Positions 3,510-28,224 of a DNA stretch of 64,000 nt are shown here, one piece after another; position 1 is the first letter of the stretch, and each line of letters starts with the position of its first letter. The position numbers were made by a program, and so were the translations under genes. Source of the stretch: Lachnospiraceae bacterium (GTDB taxonomy: Bacteria > Bacillota > Clostridia > Lachnospirales > Lachnospiraceae); assembly GCA_015057525.1 (NCBI GenBank), contig SVEE01000002.1, positions 192,767 through 256,766 on the forward strand, read 5' to 3'. The notes under the pieces are model-generated. The model did not search any database. It was not told the origin of the DNA and saw only the letters and a list, made by a program, of their open reading frames with translations.

Positions 3510-4499
3510 TTATTCACCTACAAGACACATTAGTTTAACCATAGCATCGTATAAAACCTCTTTTGAATCAGGGCTTGATGCAATTGCTATATATGTTTTA
3601 CCGTTTTTTGTTAGATACATAGCCAAACAATGTCCAGCACCACTTGTTGTTCCTGTTTTCCATGCTTCTATATCATAGTTGGCAGGAAGTTCTACATAAC
3701 CATTGTAAAATAAGTTTGAAGCTTCTATATCTTCTGTAACAGTAAGTCCAGCGTTATTAACATAAGAATATGTATATGTTTCAAAATCTGCTACTGTACG
3801 CAGTATAGAATGACTGTGTGCTTCCTTAATTATAAGATATATATCATAGGCTGATGAATAGTGCTCAGGCTCATCTAAACCATGAGGATTAGTAAAATGA
3901 GTGTTTGTTGCACCGATATCATAAGCCTTCTTATTCATCATATCACAAAAAGATGATACATCTCCCGCAATATACTCAGCTAAAATAAGGGCAAAGTGAT
4001 TGTTTGATTCAATCATAAGACCATATAATAAGTCTTTAACCGTAATTTCGCATCCCGCAACAACATCTGTAGGTAAAACACCTTCATATGACAAATCAAA
4101 TGTAGTTTGAACTGTTACAATATCATCCAAGCTGATTTCACCTGATTCAATTTGTTCGACTACAATTATTGCAGTCATGATTTTAGTCATACTAGCAGGA
4201 TACATACGGCTATGAACATTCTTAGCTGCATATAGTTGGTTATTAGTATCATCTACAAATAAGGCGTAGTAGCAATCTGGAAATAAATGACTGTTAAGCT
4301 CTTCCCCATTAGCTATAACTGTATTATTTGAATCCAGTTCAAGAGATTCTACTGGCTGTAGTGTCTCATCCACATTTAACGTCATTGAGTTAAGTGCTGG
4401 ATATGGCTGACTTATTTTATTTTTAAAATGAATTGATAATGCGTATATGCCAACAATACAAGCAATAATACACAAGTATCTCGTAATATTCTTTATCAT
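3510..4499 (-). CDS. dacF: D-alanyl-D-alanine carboxypeptidase (S11 family, DacA/DacF type)
   Basis: A low-molecular-weight penicillin-binding protein of 329 residues that trims the terminal D-Ala from peptidoglycan stem peptides. All three S11 motifs are visible: S103-M-T-K106 (SxxK), S165-N-N (SxN) and K281-T-G (KTG). An N-terminal membrane segment (about 7-24) acts as signal or anchor. The chain stops soon after the KTG domain, so the C-terminal beta domain and amphipathic anchor of classical DacA are missing. No clear ribosome-binding site precedes the ATG, suggesting coupling to mgsA 11 bp upstream. It is part of the division/elongation run. Confidence 0.92.
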   Translation of the reverse strand: MIKNITRYLCIIACIVGIYALSIHFKNKISQPYPALNSMTLNVDETLQPVESLELDSNNTVIANGEELNSHLFPDCYYALFVDDTNNQLYAAKNVHSRMYPASMTKIMTAIIVVEQIESGEISLDDIVTVQTTFDLSYEGVLPTDVVAGCEITVKDLLYGLMIESNNHFALILAEYIAGDVSSFCDMMNKKAYDIGATNTHFTNPHGLDEPEHYSSAYDIYLIIKEAHSHSILRTVADFETYTYSYVNNAGLTVTEDIEASNLFYNGYVELPANYDIEAWKTGTTSGAGHCLAMYLTKNGKTYIAIASSPDSKEVLYDAMVKLMCLVGE

Positions 4500-4510
4500 A
4501 TGCTTAAAAT

Positions 4511-4909
4511 TTAATGTTTAAATAATTCTCTCCAATCAAGGTCTCCTCTTTCAAGTGCCTTAACCATCAATTCAGCAGTTGCAAGATTGGTTGCAAGAGG
4601 AATATTGTGTATATCACAGAGAGAGAATATATTGTTTATATCCACTTCGTGAGACTTCTTAGTCTGAGGGTCTCTTAGAAAAATCATCATATCAAGGTCA
4701 TTGCTTTCAATCATAGAGCCTAACTGCTGCTCTCCGCCTGTGTGTCCGGCCAGATATTTGTGCACACTCAAATTAGTCACCTCTTCTATCATTCTACCAG
4801 TTGTACCAGTAGCGTATAAGTCGTGGTGAGATAATATTCCGCGATATGCAATACAGAAGTTCTGCATTAATTTTTTCTTTGAGTCATGAGCAATTAGACC
4901 GATATTCAT
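4511..4909 (-). CDS. mgsA: Methylglyoxal synthase
   Basis: A 132-residue cytoplasmic enzyme that converts dihydroxyacetone phosphate to methylglyoxal and phosphate, a bypass of lower glycolysis. Family signatures are AHDSKKK at the N-terminus, LYATGTTGRMI, AGHTGGEQQLGSMI and the catalytic-Asp motif D71-L-D-MMIFLRDP. The length matches the family. It lies 17 bp after rodA, the common Firmicute rodA-mgsA order. An AGAGGAG site lies 13 nt before the ATG, which is rather long spacing. Confidence 0.96.
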   Translation of the reverse strand: MNIGLIAHDSKKKLMQNFCIAYRGILSHHDLYATGTTGRMIEEVTNLSVHKYLAGHTGGEQQLGSMIESNDLDMMIFLRDPQTKKSHEVDINNIFSLCDIHNIPLATNLATAELMVKALERGDLDWRELFKH

Positions 4910-4926
4910 TTGATTTTCTTTCTCCT

Positions 4927-6045
4927 CTAGTATCTACTTCTCTGTAGGCTTATGTTTAAAACAATACCGATACCCACTGAAATACTAATTAATGAACTTA
5001 AACCATAGCTAATAAATGGTAAAGGTATTCCTGTGTTTGGAAGCACGCCTGTTGCAACACTAATATTAATAAATGACTGATATGCGATAAGGACACCAAC
5101 ACCTGAGGCAATAAGCATACCTTTAGTGTCTTTTGCACATCTTGCTATCTTTATACATTGTAACACTATTAACAATATAATTGCAATAATAATTACGCTT
5201 CCAATAAAGCCTAATTCTTCACCTATTACAGAAAAAATAAAGTCAGTTTGTTGTTCTGAGATAAAATTAGCATCCTTCACTGTTGCTATAGTTGATGTAT
5301 TTAATCCTTTTCCTGTTAATTGACCTGAGCCAATAGCCATTATAGAGTTATTCTGCTGAGAATATTCTGTACCGTAATGACTTGGATAAATAAACTGCAT
5401 TATACGTCTAACCTGATAATCCTGTAAAAGAGATTGATTCGGTAACTGAATATACCATAGAAAACTTCCTGCCAAAGGAATAAAAATAAGCAATGCTATT
5501 CCTATGATTTTATAGCTTAAACCAGATATATAAAGCATTGTAACAAGAACTAAGGTTAAACATATTGTTGTAGATAAATCAGGCTCTAATACAATAAGCA
5601 TAAGGCATATTGCCACAGGAACGATAAATGAGATAATACATTTAAAGGTATTAATTGAATCGTTATCCTTGTATCTTGCAAGCAATGTACCTATAAAAAT
5701 AATCATAAATATCTTAGAAAACTCGGATGGCTGAAACTGAATTCCGTTTTCTCCTCCAATAACAATCCATCTTTTTGCATAGTTAACAGTTACACCAAAA
5801 AGTAAAACCATCAAAAGAATAATAATATTTATAATATATAGAACATTTGAAAATTTACACACAAAATCATAATTAAGTACAGAAATAAAGATCATAACAA
5901 ATAGACCCAATACTGCTCCGACAATCTGTCTGACAGTAAATGAGCTGTCCGCACTGTTTATAACAACAATACCAATTGTTATTGCTGTTATAACCAGAAA
6001 TAGTAATTTGAAATTATAATCCTTGAGACTGAATTTTGTGAACAT
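4927..6045 (-). CDS. rodA: SEDS-family peptidoglycan glycosyltransferase RodA
   Basis: A polytopic membrane protein of 372 residues with about ten hydrophobic segments. It polymerises lipid II during side-wall growth, paired with a class B PBP. SEDS hallmarks are GGENGIQFQPSEFSKI, the W-IQ-LP loop, QQ-N-SIMAIGSGQLTGKG, EQQTDFIFSVIGEELGF and the C-terminal NTGIPLPFISYGLSSLIS. It overlaps the end of minD by 32 bp and uses an AAGGATAAAG ribosome site inside minD. The likely partner is the long PBP2 three genes upstream. A second SEDS gene occurs at 47845-49227. Confidence 0.93.
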   Translation of the reverse strand: MFTKFSLKDYNFKLLFLVITAITIGIVVINSADSSFTVRQIVGAVLGLFVMIFISVLNYDFVCKFSNVLYIINIIILLMVLLFGVTVNYAKRWIVIGGENGIQFQPSEFSKIFMIIFIGTLLARYKDNDSINTFKCIISFIVPVAICLMLIVLEPDLSTTICLTLVLVTMLYISGLSYKIIGIALLIFIPLAGSFLWYIQLPNQSLLQDYQVRRIMQFIYPSHYGTEYSQQNNSIMAIGSGQLTGKGLNTSTIATVKDANFISEQQTDFIFSVIGEELGFIGSVIIIAIILLIVLQCIKIARCAKDTKGMLIASGVGVLIAYQSFINISVATGVLPNTGIPLPFISYGLSSLISISVGIGIVLNISLQRSRY

Positions 6046-6829
6046 CTTTATCCTTCTTCTTAAACCATTTGAATAGATTCAGGCTTTTTACATCGTTGCC
6101 TAAATCAAGCGCTTCGCCCGCTATTCTCTTGGCTATGTATTCGTATTCTTTGCCAGATTTGGTCTTTGTTCCAGCTATTGGTTCTCCTCTGTTTGAGGAT
6201 ATTACTATGTTTTCGTCATCCATGATTGTGCCTATAAGATTAACAGAAAGTATATCTGACACATCATCAACAGACATCATATCCCCTCTTCTAACCATAT
6301 CCATCCTAATTTTATTTATTACTAAATCAATTCTAGGCATTTCGTTTGCATCCAAAATACCAATAATCCTATCTGCATCTCTTATTGCTGAAACTTCGGG
6401 TGTTGTAACTACGATAGCTCGCTGAGCGGCTGCAATTGCATTTTTAAAACCATGCTCAATTCCCGCAGGGCAATCAATTATTATGTAATCATATTCTGGT
6501 TTGAGTTGTTCAACCAGTTTTTTCATTTGTTCAGGTGTGACAGAGGTTTTGTCCCTTGTCTGAGCAGCAGGCATAAGGGAAAGTCCTTGGCAGCCTTTAT
6601 CTTTAATGATAGCCTGCTTAAATTTACAGTTACCTTCTATAACATCAACAAGGTTATAGACAATGCGATTTTCAAGTCCCATTACCACATCAAGATTTCT
6701 TAGTCCTATATCAGTGTCAATTAGCAAGACGCTGTATCCTATACGGGCCAAACCATATCCAATATTAGCTGTGGTTGTTGTTTTTCCTACGCCACCCTTT
6801 CCTGATGTAACAACTATAACTTCACTCAT
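6014..6829 (-). CDS. minD: Septum site-determining ATPase MinD
   Basis: A 271-residue deviant Walker-A ATPase of the ParA/MinD group. The P-loop is SGKGGVGKTTTTAN (from residue 9), the switch-type motifs are DTDIGLRNLD and IIIDCPAGIE, and the C-terminal amphipathic membrane helix lies around LNLFKWFKKKDKD. ATP-bound MinD sits on the membrane and activates MinC to block FtsZ rings at the poles. minC is 3 bp upstream. The end of the gene overlaps rodA, so there is no room for minE here. Polar placement may instead depend on DivIVA, which is inference. Confidence 0.97.
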   Translation of the reverse strand: MSEVIVVTSGKGGVGKTTTTANIGYGLARIGYSVLLIDTDIGLRNLDVVMGLENRIVYNLVDVIEGNCKFKQAIIKDKGCQGLSLMPAAQTRDKTSVTPEQMKKLVEQLKPEYDYIIIDCPAGIEHGFKNAIAAAQRAIVVTTPEVSAIRDADRIIGILDANEMPRIDLVINKIRMDMVRRGDMMSVDDVSDILSVNLIGTIMDDENIVISSNRGEPIAGTKTKSGKEYEYIAKRIAGEALDLGNDVKSLNLFKWFKKKDKDVHKIQSQGL

Positions 6830-6832
6830 ACT

Positions 6833-7333
6833 TTAATTCCTCCCTGAAAATAGAGTGTAGACAAAGGCGTCTTCATTTCCTTGATAACCTGCTTCTGCAT
6901 ATCCATTTAATCGTCCTATGATTATTATATTTCCCTTAGAATATACACAGGCTCCTTGCTCTACATCTCCTACAATTATGATACTCTCAGATGCCTCTAT
7001 GGATTGACCGTTTTTTAAGTTACCCAAATAGAATAGCCCATCTTCATCAGGAGGTATATTTTGTTGTTTATCTGTTGGTATTTCAGGGGGTGATATATTA
7101 GTTTTTATGTTTAACCCCAAATTTCTTAATGTATCTAATACTATTGTAATTTCATCTTCCGTTAAAATTTTACCTTCAAAGGTAACCGTAATAGGCTTGA
7201 TATTTTTGTAATATTGTTTTGTGTTCTGAAGTTTTTTGATTAATTCATCTATAATTATATCAATATCTGCTTCATAAGCAACAATCAACCTTAAGCCCAT
7301 TTTATTACCCTTAATAATAACGGGACTTATCAT
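6833..7333 (-). CDS. minC: Septum site-determining protein MinC (short form)
   Basis: This is the FtsZ-ring inhibitor partner of MinD, 166 residues from the ATG chosen by an AGAGG site. The N-terminal domain begins SPVIIKGNKMGLRL, typical of MinC. The C-terminal beta-helix domain is recognisable at GQSIEASESIIIVGDVEQGACVYSKGNIIIIGRLNGYAEAGYQG (residues about 110-155). The protein ends soon after, at DAFVYTLFSGRN, so the final beta-helix strands normally found after ARIFA-type motifs are missing; most MinC proteins are about 200-230 residues. The stop codon is part of the tight junction with minD, so truncation by sequencing error seems unlikely. Confidence 0.88.
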   Translation of the reverse strand: MISPVIIKGNKMGLRLIVAYEADIDIIIDELIKKLQNTKQYYKNIKPITVTFEGKILTEDEITIVLDTLRNLGLNIKTNISPPEIPTDKQQNIPPDEDGLFYLGNLKNGQSIEASESIIIVGDVEQGACVYSKGNIIIIGRLNGYAEAGYQGNEDAFVYTLFSGRN

Positions 7334-24528: not shown

Positions 24529-27500
24529 CTAATTTATTTTATGTTTTTCTTTATCGCAAACAATATTTCCATATCCATCAATCCAATATGTAACCTGTTG
24601 CTCTGCCTTTCTCTCCCAACCATTAACCTCGCGTGACCATGCATCAAACTCGTCAGATGTATGAGAATACTCATATGATATCACATAATCATATTCATAA
24701 AAAGTACAATATACACCATAATAAACTGACACGCCATCCCATGCAGTTATTTTATTTATTTTATTATTTGATTTTAAAAAAGCAATAGCCATATTGTAAC
24801 CAAAATCCTCTCGTTCAAAAGTAAAATCTAAATTACCATTATTGCAACTAGATAAATTCAGATATTGTATACTTTTCGGTTCTAGATTGTCAACTGAAAT
24901 ATCTCGTTTTTTATTGAATTTATTATTCAAATGTTCATCGTTATACGTATTATCATCAGCATATAACCAACCGTTCTCTGCTATTGCAATTGAGCATGGA
25001 TTCCCATGATATATCAAATGTACTTCATCAATAATATATTCCTTTTTTCCGTTTGAATTTAATCCCATTTTATTCCATGATGTAACAAAATCACTTATAC
25101 TATTAGTGGTAATATGTTGAACATTTTTATCATAAACATACTTTAATTCTAAATATCTTGTATCAGCTTCATGTTGCATAAAGTCTTCTGCTGTGCTACT
25201 AGTAAAAATGTAACTTTTTGATTTGTTATATGATTTAGGTGTTGCATCTTCATAATCTAATGCACCATCACCATCTGTATCAGGATTATTGGGGTCTGAA
25301 TACATTATAAACATATAACCACGAACTTCTGCACCTAGTTCTCCATCTTCATTCATACCTATTTTTGTATATAAAATCGGATTTGTATCTATCTCTTCTC
25401 CATCCAGTAGACCATCATCATCAGAGTCATCATCATTAGGATCTGTATAAATAACTGTTCCATCTATAAGTCTTATGCCTATAGTCTCAACCTCATCGTA
25501 CAGACCATCCTCGTCATCATCTGTTACTTCAAAAGTTCTTTGAACATATATTTTATAATATATAGATGATAAATCTTCAGGCTCATAAGCATTAAAGTAA
25601 CATCCACCTGTAGCTAATGCCATTGCTTTAAGTTTATCATCTGCCAGACCGCCACCGACCTTAATAGTATATAATTTTACACCTTTTTCAACATATAAAT
25701 TTAGAATTTCTTCAGAGCACATTCCATTTCCGTCGGATATAAAAACTACTCTATTACATGCATTAGGGTCATTAAGCATTTCATCTGTAAACTTATCAAT
25801 AGATTTTTGCATAGATGCATCAAAATTTGTTTCCCCAGAACTAATAATCTCCTGCATATATAATTTAAGTTCTTGTTTGTCATTTGTAAAATCTGATTCA
25901 AAAAATACATCCTCATTAAAAAATACTGTAGCCGAATTATCATCAGCAGTCATCATGTCTATATAATTACATGCTCCATTTATTCTACCACAAGTTTTTC
26001 TATATTTTGCTTCATCAGCCGAATTAACATCTTTATTAGTAAATATTGGGTCATTTTCGTTCATGCTATCTGAACAATCAATACAAAGCACTGTATTTAT
26101 ATGGTTTGTTCCATCTGCCCCATCGTAGTCAAGTACTGATGACCATGCTTTATACCATTTTTCTTTATCCACAAGCATATATTTACTAAAATGTGTTGTT
26201 TCTGTACTTACAATACCAGTTTCTTCATCATGTATGGTTTCAAGTTCTACAAATTGCATTCCTATTTCATCGTACCATAAAAACATGAGATTTTCAAAAG
26301 GTATATCTCCTAAACTATCTTTATCTACTTTAAATGACAAAGTCGCAATATCAAATTTTGCTGTGGTTTCTATTTCAAACGGTTCTCCATATAAACCGAC
26401 AACTCTTGAGCTGTGGTAATCCTTATTCATTACACTTTCAATTACTGTTTTGCTTTGTACACAATCCTTACTTGATGTAGATATTGATATTTCATCTATC
26501 GAACAAGTCTCATTTTCTACTTTATATGTATAATTTTGCTCATAAGTTTCCCTACCATCAGATATACCATCACCATCTGTATCTTTAACACGTGGGTCAG
26601 TTCCTAATATAATTTCATCACCGTCATTTAATCCATCATTATCTGTATCAGCTACTCTTACCTTTGTATGGTATAAATTCACCTCTTTACCATCCCATAA
26701 TCCATCATCATCTGTATCAGGATTCCATGAATCAGCATTATTATTAGCTTCCTGCTTTGTTGTTAATCCATCTTTATCATAATCTTCCTGTCCATCTAAT
26801 ATTCCATTATTATCAGTATCTATTAAAGATGGATTTGTAAATGAAATATATATCTCATAAAAATCATTAAGTCCGTCCGCGTCTGTATCTTCAATATTTA
26901 TATCACTTCCATAATAAAACTCATAGCTATCTTCAACTCCATCTGAGTCGGAGTTTTCCATTGCTATATTATAATTGCCACTTACATTTAGCCATGGTGA
27001 TTCTACATATGTTTCTTCATCGTAATAACCATTCACATAAAAATTTATATAGGGTTTATACTCATTTAACGAAAAAATATAGCTGTCGTCTTCTGTTGTA
27101 TCGTATAAGGTATATTCTATTCCATCATACGAAACGTATATATCATATTTTATACATTCCATATTCGAAAACATATGAAGCTCAAGTTCTTTTTTTTCCT
27201 CATTAATTCCTCCTAAAAGACCAACAAATACATCATCTAAATCAATCTCATCTTTTTCATCATCTTCTCTGTCTTCATCTATGTTGTCACCTGATGTATC
27301 TTCTCCTCCTTCGTCTGTGCCTTCTCCTGATGCATCTCCATCTTCGCCTGTATCTTCTCCTGATGTACCTCCTCCTTCGCTTGTATTATATTCTGACATA
27401 ACAATATCACTTATTTCTGCATCAGATGTTCCAGGTTCCACAAGGAAACCAAATGTAACACTTGCCCCGGGAGCAATATTCTGATTATAAAGCTGGCATC

Positions 27501-28224
27501 CAATAAGGTACTGGCCGTTATCATCAGATATAATCATACCATCCCATATCTGGGTTATTAGGTTATCACCATAGTTAAACTTAATTCTCCAGTCCTCAAG
27601 GGCAGTATCCTTGTTGTTGGTAATGGTAAGCTGTGCCTTATAGCCAAAGCCCCAGTCCTCTGTAATCTCATATGCCACAGAGTAATCTCCATCTGCAAGC
27701 TCAACTTCATTACCAAGAAGTGTGTAATAAGCAGGGTACTCTGTAAATGCTTCATAGCAGGTAATACCAAAGGACACACTGCCACCCACGGCAATATCCT
27801 GATTCCAGCCATCATTCTTTATTACAAAATAATCCTCATGGACTTCTGCAATAGTTGCATTCCATATGTTTGATATGTTCTGCCCAAGTGGGAATGCCAT
27901 AGTCCAATTTTCTATAACACTGTCACCTGTATTAGCAATTGTAATTGTTGCATTATAACCACTATCCCAGTAGCTATCAAGTGTAAATGTTACCTGATAA
28001 TTCTCTCCCACATAAGCATTGTTATCAAAAGTTACATCCTGTGCTACAACATCTTCTGCTGATGATTCTGTTGTAACGTCTCCGTCAATACCCGCATCTG
28101 TGTCCGTCGCAATTACTTCCTCCGCCTGCACACTTCTTCCCTCCAATGAGTTTCCTGTGCCAAGCACTAGAAACATCATTACCAAGGACATAAAAAATGC
28201 CATTATTTTCTTTTGTTTCTTCAT
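24529..28224 (-). CDS. Large secreted CBM2 / calcium-repeat / VWA protein with possible caspase-like C-terminus
   Basis: 1231 residues from the ATG that follows an AAAGGAG site; an in-frame upstream extension lacks a ribosome site. Order: signal peptide (1-35, ending VQA-EE); two CBM2-like cellulose-binding domains (about 66-158 and 181-261); acidic Gly/Glu/Asp linker (282-331); beta domain; thrombospondin-type-3 or EF-hand-like DxDxDG repeats (about 424-561); VWA domain (about 708-891) with MIDAS D716-x-S-x-S720, T799 and D831; more DxDxDG repeats (901-996); C-terminal domain (about 1000-1231). The last has VHLIYH1073-G and LNLSSC1127, the His-Gly and Ser-Cys spacing of caspase-fold (CHAT/C14-like) peptidases. 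The CBM2 part suggests contact with plant fibre or polysaccharide. Protease activity is inference. No LPxTG anchor is seen. Confidence 0.8.
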   Translation of the reverse strand: MKKQKKIMAFFMSLVMMFLVLGTGNSLEGRSVQAEEVIATDTDAGIDGDVTTESSAEDVVAQDVTFDNNAYVGENYQVTFTLDSYWDSGYNATITIANTGDSVIENWTMAFPLGQNISNIWNATIAEVHEDYFVIKNDGWNQDIAVGGSVSFGITCYEAFTEYPAYYTLLGNEVELADGDYSVAYEITEDWGFGYKAQLTITNNKDTALEDWRIKFNYGDNLITQIWDGMIISDDNGQYLIGCQLYNQNIAPGASVTFGFLVEPGTSDAEISDIVMSEYNTSEGGGTSGEDTGEDGDASGEGTDEGGEDTSGDNIDEDREDDEKDEIDLDDVFVGLLGGINEEKKELELHMFSNMECIKYDIYVSYDGIEYTLYDTTEDDSYIFSLNEYKPYINFYVNGYYDEETYVESPWLNVSGNYNIAMENSDSDGVEDSYEFYYGSDINIEDTDADGLNDFYEIYISFTNPSLIDTDNNGILDGQEDYDKDGLTTKQEANNNADSWNPDTDDDGLWDGKEVNLYHTKVRVADTDNDGLNDGDEIILGTDPRVKDTDGDGISDGRETYEQNYTYKVENETCSIDEISISTSSKDCVQSKTVIESVMNKDYHSSRVVGLYGEPFEIETTAKFDIATLSFKVDKDSLGDIPFENLMFLWYDEIGMQFVELETIHDEETGIVSTETTHFSKYMLVDKEKWYKAWSSVLDYDGADGTNHINTVLCIDCSDSMNENDPIFTNKDVNSADEAKYRKTCGRINGACNYIDMMTADDNSATVFFNEDVFFESDFTNDKQELKLYMQEIISSGETNFDASMQKSIDKFTDEMLNDPNACNRVVFISDGNGMCSEEILNLYVEKGVKLYTIKVGGGLADDKLKAMALATGGCYFNAYEPEDLSSIYYKIYVQRTFEVTDDDEDGLYDEVETIGIRLIDGTVIYTDPNDDDSDDDGLLDGEEIDTNPILYTKIGMNEDGELGAEVRGYMFIMYSDPNNPDTDGDGALDYEDATPKSYNKSKSYIFTSSTAEDFMQHEADTRYLELKYVYDKNVQHITTNSISDFVTSWNKMGLNSNGKKEYIIDEVHLIYHGNPCSIAIAENGWLYADDNTYNDEHLNNKFNKKRDISVDNLEPKSIQYLNLSSCNNGNLDFTFEREDFGYNMAIAFLKSNNKINKITAWDGVSVYYGVYCTFYEYDYVISYEYSHTSDEFDAWSREVNGWERKAEQQVTYWIDGYGNIVCDKEKHKIN

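Follow-up and report, generated by a model that had tools for sequence, protein, structure and literature searches.

We analysed a 64,000-nucleotide (nt) stretch, hereafter the window, of contig SVEE01000002.1 from a Lachnospiraceae bacterium (assembly GCA_015057525.1, positions 192,767 to 256,766 of the forward strand). Coordinates follow the numbering of this whole stretch, and residue numbers refer to the 1231-amino acid (aa) protein encoded by an open reading frame (ORF) on the minus strand at 24529–28224 (translation starting with MKKQKK). The protein comprises a body with two CBM2 domains, TSP3-like calcium repeats and a VWA domain, followed by a caspase-like C-terminal domain, called the tip below. 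A gene for a 342-aa RCC1-like protein lies directly behind it (Table 1). The two genes probably encode a polymorphic toxin and the matching immunity protein. The body is conserved and its C-terminal domain is exchangeable, the immunity-like gene directly 3′ tracks the tip, and tandem or orphan immunity genes as well as orphan tip cassettes were found (the RCC1-like ones by profile, the rest by eye).

Table 1. Features of the 1231-aa protein and the adjacent partner gene.
Feature	Residues	Coordinates	Strand	Basis
Putative N-terminal secretion signal	1–35	28120..28224	−	Basic start and hydrophobic core, by reading of the translation
First CBM2	77–169	27718..27996	−	Pfam PF00553 (CBM_2) E 6e-36, two stretches
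Second CBM2	~180–275	27400..27687	−	Second CBM_2 stretch and CBM49 match 195–261; borders by eye
Linker, Gly/Ser-rich, acidic		27235..27399	−	Sequence
First TSP3-like calcium repeat block	424–566	26527..26955	−	TSP3_bac E 1.3e-5 and motifs; borders by eye
Pre-VWA domain		26155..26526	−	HFS motif (H678-F679-S680) at 26185–26193
VWA domain		25540..26112	−	VWA_2 E 2.7e-6, residues 711–832; MIDAS residues present
Second TSP3-like block	900–1000	25225..25527	−	Motifs at 902, 933, 982; borders by eye
Caspase-like C-terminal tip	1003–1231	24532..25218	−	Alignments and predicted fold
Tip key residue	H1073	25006–25008	−	
Tip key residue	C1127	24844–24846	−	
Tip key residue	D1163	24736–24738	−	
Adjacent partner, 342 aa		23474..24502	−	N-terminal membrane segment, then RCC1-like repeats; gap to the 1231-aa protein gene 26 nt

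The domain order CBM2, calcium repeats, VWA and C-terminal domain, proposed in a first-pass annotation, was borne out by Pfam and motifs, and the gene coordinates and residue numbers given there for H1073, C1127 and the calcium motifs were exact. DxDxDG-type motifs stand at residues 446, 469, 481, 503, 526 and 548 in the first block, besides those listed for the second. Calcium binding by both blocks is expected from these motifs; a calcium switch is speculation. In the first CBM2, W86, W121 and W140 occupy what we take to be the places of the CBM2a binding-face Trp residues. An LPXTG-like motif was searched for in the 1231-aa protein and not found; thus the protein would probably be released and kept on the fibre by its CBM2 pair.

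The metal ion-dependent adhesion site (MIDAS) of the VWA domain was described as intact, and by eye its residues D716, S718, S720, T799 and D831 are indeed present, with DCSDS beginning at 716. A simple pattern gave DCSGY in the paralogue on contig C8 of the same genome, a degenerate-looking site in locus L085 and none in L031. An intact MIDAS is therefore not constant across bodies, and it was dropped as an essential feature. The HFS motif in front of the VWA domain was kept in all 19 proteins with this body that span the pre-VWA domain. By analogy, it is a possible candidate for a ZU5-type autocleavage site. As a cleavage motif, HFS is the form of PIDD and Nup98, and the 19 sequences agree with this form only. 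None of the 19 members matched ZU5 at E values up to 5, and the pre-VWA domain gave no match in a PDB sequence search and no usable one in Pfam. ZU5 is among the processing domains of Zhang et al. (2012; PMC3482391), where the motif is a C-terminal CxH rather than HFS.

The tip was said to hold His-Gly and Ser-Cys, and H1073-G1074 and S1126-C1127 were confirmed. Fifteen tips, including that of the window, were aligned; the alignment leaves out the fragments L064, L073 and L074, and L066 and L079/L093 duplicate L076. Seven positions were invariant, Y1005, F1046, W1050, H1073, C1127, D1163 and G1164, at a median pairwise identity of 26% (18–79%). The dyad H1073/C1127 was thus kept in 15 of 15 tips, a check that the first-pass annotation had proposed for homologues, although these are not an independent sample, since they were collected with profiles that include the window. 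As two of the seven invariant positions, H1073 and C1127 are more than a chance pair.

Used as a single query, the window tip had two strong relatives in the 37 genus genomes (G304 and G314, 44–45% identity), matches in 2 of 299 genomes of the family (its own and a weak one with a stop), and one weak plasmid record, a protein of Clostridiaceae bacterium 14S0207 with 28% identity. It had no match in a further set of genome contigs or in phages. The same plasmid record was found with the L080 tip (E 3e-36), and none was found with the L079 tip; three queries against viral contigs were without match. The window tip, G304, G314 and the plasmid protein were aligned as a profile for a class-wide search, which matched 15 of 391 genomes, own included. 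The carriers were eight RHS proteins, judged by eye from repeats and RHS-type ends, a choline-binding-repeat protein (L062/L080), the shorter proteins L063 and L064, the fragments L073 and L074, and a second CBM2-TSP3-VWA protein with a caspase-like tip in another family (L068/L085). The same tip thus ends unrelated carriers of the RHS, choline-binding, CHAP and CBM2-TSP3-VWA kinds.

Some carriers deserve separate mention. On plasmid CP026603.1 (L014, 4939–6687), a protein of 582 aa combines three peptidoglycan-binding stretches with a CHAP domain and ends in a related caspase-like tip. The caspase-like tip of L080 (G595) occurs together with a weak Phage_GPD match, and in L081 (G498) a spike-like ORF lies behind, by eye; both contexts hint at a contractile-injection carrier. 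In L065/L083 (G798:C36), a sugar-dehydrogenase-like start and an RHS-type end with a caspase-like tip share one frame, which is perhaps an assembly chimera.

The window and the loci L077, L078 and L079 supplied the sequences for two AlphaFold (AF2) models of the tip. The window model (mean predicted local distance difference test, pLDDT, 67.3; predicted template modelling score, pTM, 0.71) had the order strand-helix-strand-helix-strand(His)...strand(Cys)-helix-strand, which is the caspase strand order, and its strands 66–72 and 119–127 precede H74 and C128 (model numbering). The L079 model had a mean pLDDT of 73.0 and a pTM of 0.71, with ten-residue blocks from 11 to 110 at 78–94. In Foldseek searches of PDB, caspase or CED-3 titles made up 19 of the best 20 of 842 matches to the window model (E 0.03–0.1). 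For the L079 model, 49 of the best 50 of 1096 matches had "caspase" in the title (best E 6.3e-5), and two of the 1096 reached E ≤ 0.001. The remaining one of these 50 was Tce1, a type VI secretion system (T6SS) effector and the only bacterial protein there. The best match in BFVD was named a caspase domain protein. These models predict a caspase-like (clan CD) fold in which a central strand precedes each of the two conserved residues, His and Cys, and from dyad and fold the tip is presumably a cysteine protease.

The caspase-fold layout put forward in the first-pass annotation therefore stands; its example, CHAT, does not. CHAT (PF12770) matched none of 12 tip members at E values up to 5 and none of 41 relatives. 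Pfam gave no match for residues 1000–1231 at E values up to 1, and DUF4347 (PF14252) stayed under its cut-off (best E 0.0092, 16.2 vs 24.6 bits; 1 of 12 members). The tips matched PHROGs weakly only (best E 0.0035). Searched against PDB by sequence, a second query (A2) gave seven matches at E 0.47–1.2, six of them pantothenate kinases.

Exchange of the tip was evident within the genome itself. The gene and its C8 paralogue have 965 bp in common (139 bp of 5′ flank, signal and CBM2s) at 92.9% DNA identity. Beyond this, DNA identity is 67–70%, and in the tip 6–18% of amino acids are identical per 50-residue bin. The two tips are unrelated; that of C8 matched Lnb_N below the threshold (E 0.0016). 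Searches for the body were positive in 9 of 37 genus genomes at E ≤ 1e-3, seven reaching E ≤ 1e-16, and, across the family, in 10 of 397 genomes at E ≤ 1e-15. The tips of these bodies and of the other carriers formed eight clusters; the clusters and the pairing below leave out L085, L014, L090, L055, L034 and the copy L093, and in the fragment L019 (G322) no tip was seen. A DUF3289 (colicin M-like) tip was present in L032, L050, L054 and L033, Ntox44 in L028, and DUF4474, of unknown function, on two bodies (L051 and L058); another group had a sub-threshold C39 match (E 0.0039). Separate tip pieces were seen by eye in L054 and L058. One body, L060, carries BspA-type repeats. In metagenome-assembled genome (MAG) SIG297, the body gene is split into two overlapping frames at ~2264–2286 (L029/L077), either really or by assembly error. 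Both C39-like tip loci of G294 (L056 and L057) end at contig ends at the VWA domain, as a repeated body would give in assembly.

In 18 of 18 loci with this body, the gene directly behind lies on the same strand, starts at −43 to 159 nt and encodes a hydrophobic segment at the N-terminus. L055, which a contig end truncates, L029 with its broken frame, L034, which lacks VWA and tip, and L085 are outside this count. Such a segment was found in 57 of the 148 other ORFs of 100–400 aa in those loci, and the resulting Fisher P of 1.7e-7, like the shuffle count that follows, is optimistic because of spurious background ORFs and closely related loci. Among 31 tip-partner pairs, taken both from this body and from the other carriers, similar partner pairs fell inside one tip cluster in 17 of 17 cases, which 0 of 10000 label shuffles matched.

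The window partner itself matched Pfam RCC1 (E 1.4e-8, 35.6 bits vs the cut-off of 21.7) and RCC1_2 (E 2.9e-6). Within the caspase-like cluster, RCC1-like partners belong to the window, L029, L030 (a contig-cut copy) and L079; other partners were a 136–138-aa family (L080–L082), a 155–226-aa family (L086, L088, L089, L091 and L092) and singletons. The RCC1-like partner of L079, in another family, overlaps its RHS gene by 4 nt. An RCC1-like gene directly follows in 0 of 16 body loci with other tips; in L031, which has a different tip, it is the fourth gene. L130 has one as well, together with four further small genes of the same orientation and with no tip match at E 10. The 342-aa protein is probably the immunity protein.

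The L130 stretch (G780:C68:9000-19000, 3786–7241) holds the gene of a 324-aa RCC1-like protein and four other small genes whose starts, by eye, resemble signals or membrane segments, and is possibly an immunity island. Tandem similar partner copies were seen by eye in L056 and L059. L099 holds two RCC1-like genes in tandem, the first cut by a contig end. L099 and L131 were dropped as orphan partners: the partner pieces in L030, L131 and L099 all sit at the ends of contigs from a single genome, and the four search matches may stand for fewer genes. A class-wide RCC1 search matched 63 of 391 genomes, mostly long RCC1-repeat proteins by open-frame length, and only G536 and G780 were used from it. 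In L112 (G478:C4, matches 44228–73549), an open frame of 29,380 aa has several RCC1-like matches, which points to either a repeat protein of giant size or an anomalous contig.

In the mechanism that we propose, Sec would export the constant body, which runs from signal peptide and CBM2 pair through TSP3, pre-VWA and VWA to the second TSP3 block; the CBM2 pair would tether it to plant fibre, and calcium would stiffen the TSP3 stalk. The body would display the exchangeable tip, here a putative cysteine protease with the dyad H1073/C1127, and the tip may act on the outside of neighbour cells. These would most likely be other Gram-positive bacteria that share the fibre. The RCC1-like partner, anchored in the membrane, would block the tip and protect the producer, and a cut at HF|S before VWA might be an extra step, by analogy with ZU5. 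The likely role is that of a fibre-bound toxin against neighbouring bacteria.

The first-pass annotation had instead suggested a self-processing or calcium-switched surface adhesin, in which the caspase-like domain cuts its own protein. Calcium repeats on both sides of VWA would suit this, and caspase-like domains do serve as autoprocessing peptidases in other toxins. In the same source, however, internal caspase domains are interpreted as processing peptidases and C-terminal ones as toxins (Zhang et al., 2012; PMC3482391). The window domain is the C-terminus, homologous bodies carry unrelated domains, including known toxin families, in its stead, and the conserved HFS would be the better self-cleavage candidate. 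Its C-terminal place, the domain exchange and the unrelated carriers shift the reading from self-processing to toxin, and since partner families track the tip as well, the adhesin is very unlikely. A protease that stays on the fibre and digests plant or cell debris for food, as one of several enzymes carried by CBM2, would account for a CBM2 pair as in cellulases and for a cysteine-protease-like dyad. It is highly improbable in view of the toxin families among the other tips, the partner linkage and the tip relatives on RHS carriers.

A toxin aimed at gut eukaryotes (protozoa or fungi), with the partner as chaperone or self-protection factor, has a precedent in Tce1 and its sister Tce2, which share fold class and dyad; neither is reported to have markedly affected growth of E. 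coli, and Tce2 harms yeast (PMC13323088). We nevertheless consider it unlikely, because partner families track the tip and also stand beside other tips or without one, as kin immunity predicts, and the tips of sister bodies include DUF3289, which is antibacterial (PMC12135965). Anti-phage defence was dropped, as PADLOC gave no match for the 1231-aa protein or its partner.

Several observations weigh against a toxin-immunity pair acting on bacteria from a fibre. The Tce results just mentioned are one, and the optimistic linkage statistics are another. L085 and plasmid L014 have caspase-like tips without a nearby same-strand partner. CBM2 was without match at E 0.01 in L052, L053, L054, L033 and L060, so fibre display cannot be general. 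Ntox44 is a predicted RNase (PMC12165300), and together with the N-terminal membrane segment of its neighbour this fits poorly with an outside target. For the fold, 0 of 842 PDB matches to the window model reached E ≤ 0.001, template modelling (TM) scores were at most 0.5 for both models owing to low-confidence insertions, and a first sequence query (A1) found no significant solved structure in PDB. How a secreted CBM-bound protein would meet its target is left unexplained.

More tentatively, and with some doubt, we speculate that the protein belongs to an undescribed class of fibre-delivered polymorphic toxins, with CBM2 parking, a calcium-stiffened TSP3/VWA arm, tip release at HF|S, action on the outer face and RCC1-like propellers as a new immunity fold. 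In such a class, lipid II would be hit by DUF3289, and surface proteins of Gram-positive competitors by the caspase-like tip; with action on their outer face, no entry into the target cell would be needed. If the toxin reading as such is right, fibre-degrading gut bacteria bear a modular weapon with a cellulose-binding delivery part, and bacterial competition is tied to the food particle itself. The locus offers a concrete candidate toxin-immunity pair, in which an RCC1-like protein with a membrane anchor may represent an immunity fold, and the TSP3-HFS-VWA body is a sequence handle for new toxin tips in this bacterial family.

Among known systems, DUF4347 and the T6SS effectors Tce1 and Tce2 (PDB 9qpe) come close. 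Tce1 has a His-Cys dyad, H186/C240, 54 residues apart as in the tip (PMC13323088). Foldseek aligned Tce1 with the L079 model at E 3e-3 (prob 1.00). A profile comparison superposed the His and the Cys of both dyads, but at a non-significant E of 0.75, behind a pantothenate kinase (0.47). Unlike the window toxin candidate, Tce1 and Tce2 are T6SS cargo with no obvious immunity gene. DUF3289, which tips four relatives of the window body, is homologous to colicin M and has an immunity partner that was put to the test (PMC11148199). It also serves as an antibacterial effector of T6SS, and for one effector studied the immunity protein comprises a signal peptide and three membrane helices (PMC12135965). 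Delivery in these papers is by T6SS, whereas here it would be by a signal-peptide TSP3/VWA body, with or without CBM2.

The first-pass annotation knew of no described system with this order. For the body this holds as far as we found: a literature search by title and abstract start gave no description of CBM2/TSP3/VWA polymorphic toxins within the collection searched. Within its first 300,000 of 357,715 characters, the text of Zhang et al. (2012; PMC3482391) has no mention of VWA, von Willebrand, thrombospondin or TSP3, nor of cellulose, carbohydrate-binding or calcium-binding, and its sole RCC1 occurrence is part of a virus name. The same paper describes polymorphic toxins with a constant secreted body, an exchangeable C-terminal toxin and an immunity gene directly 3′, as at the window locus, lists Tox-Caspase (H, C) as a toxin class, and reports strings of immunity genes and polyimmunity loci. 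The RHS protein L079, from a water-deer gut Clostridia MAG, differs from the window protein in its body and resembles it in a homologous tip (36% identity) with an RCC1-like partner directly behind. The CBM2-TSP3-VWA body was thus not found described, and the polymorphic-toxin-like system to which it belongs is of a known kind.

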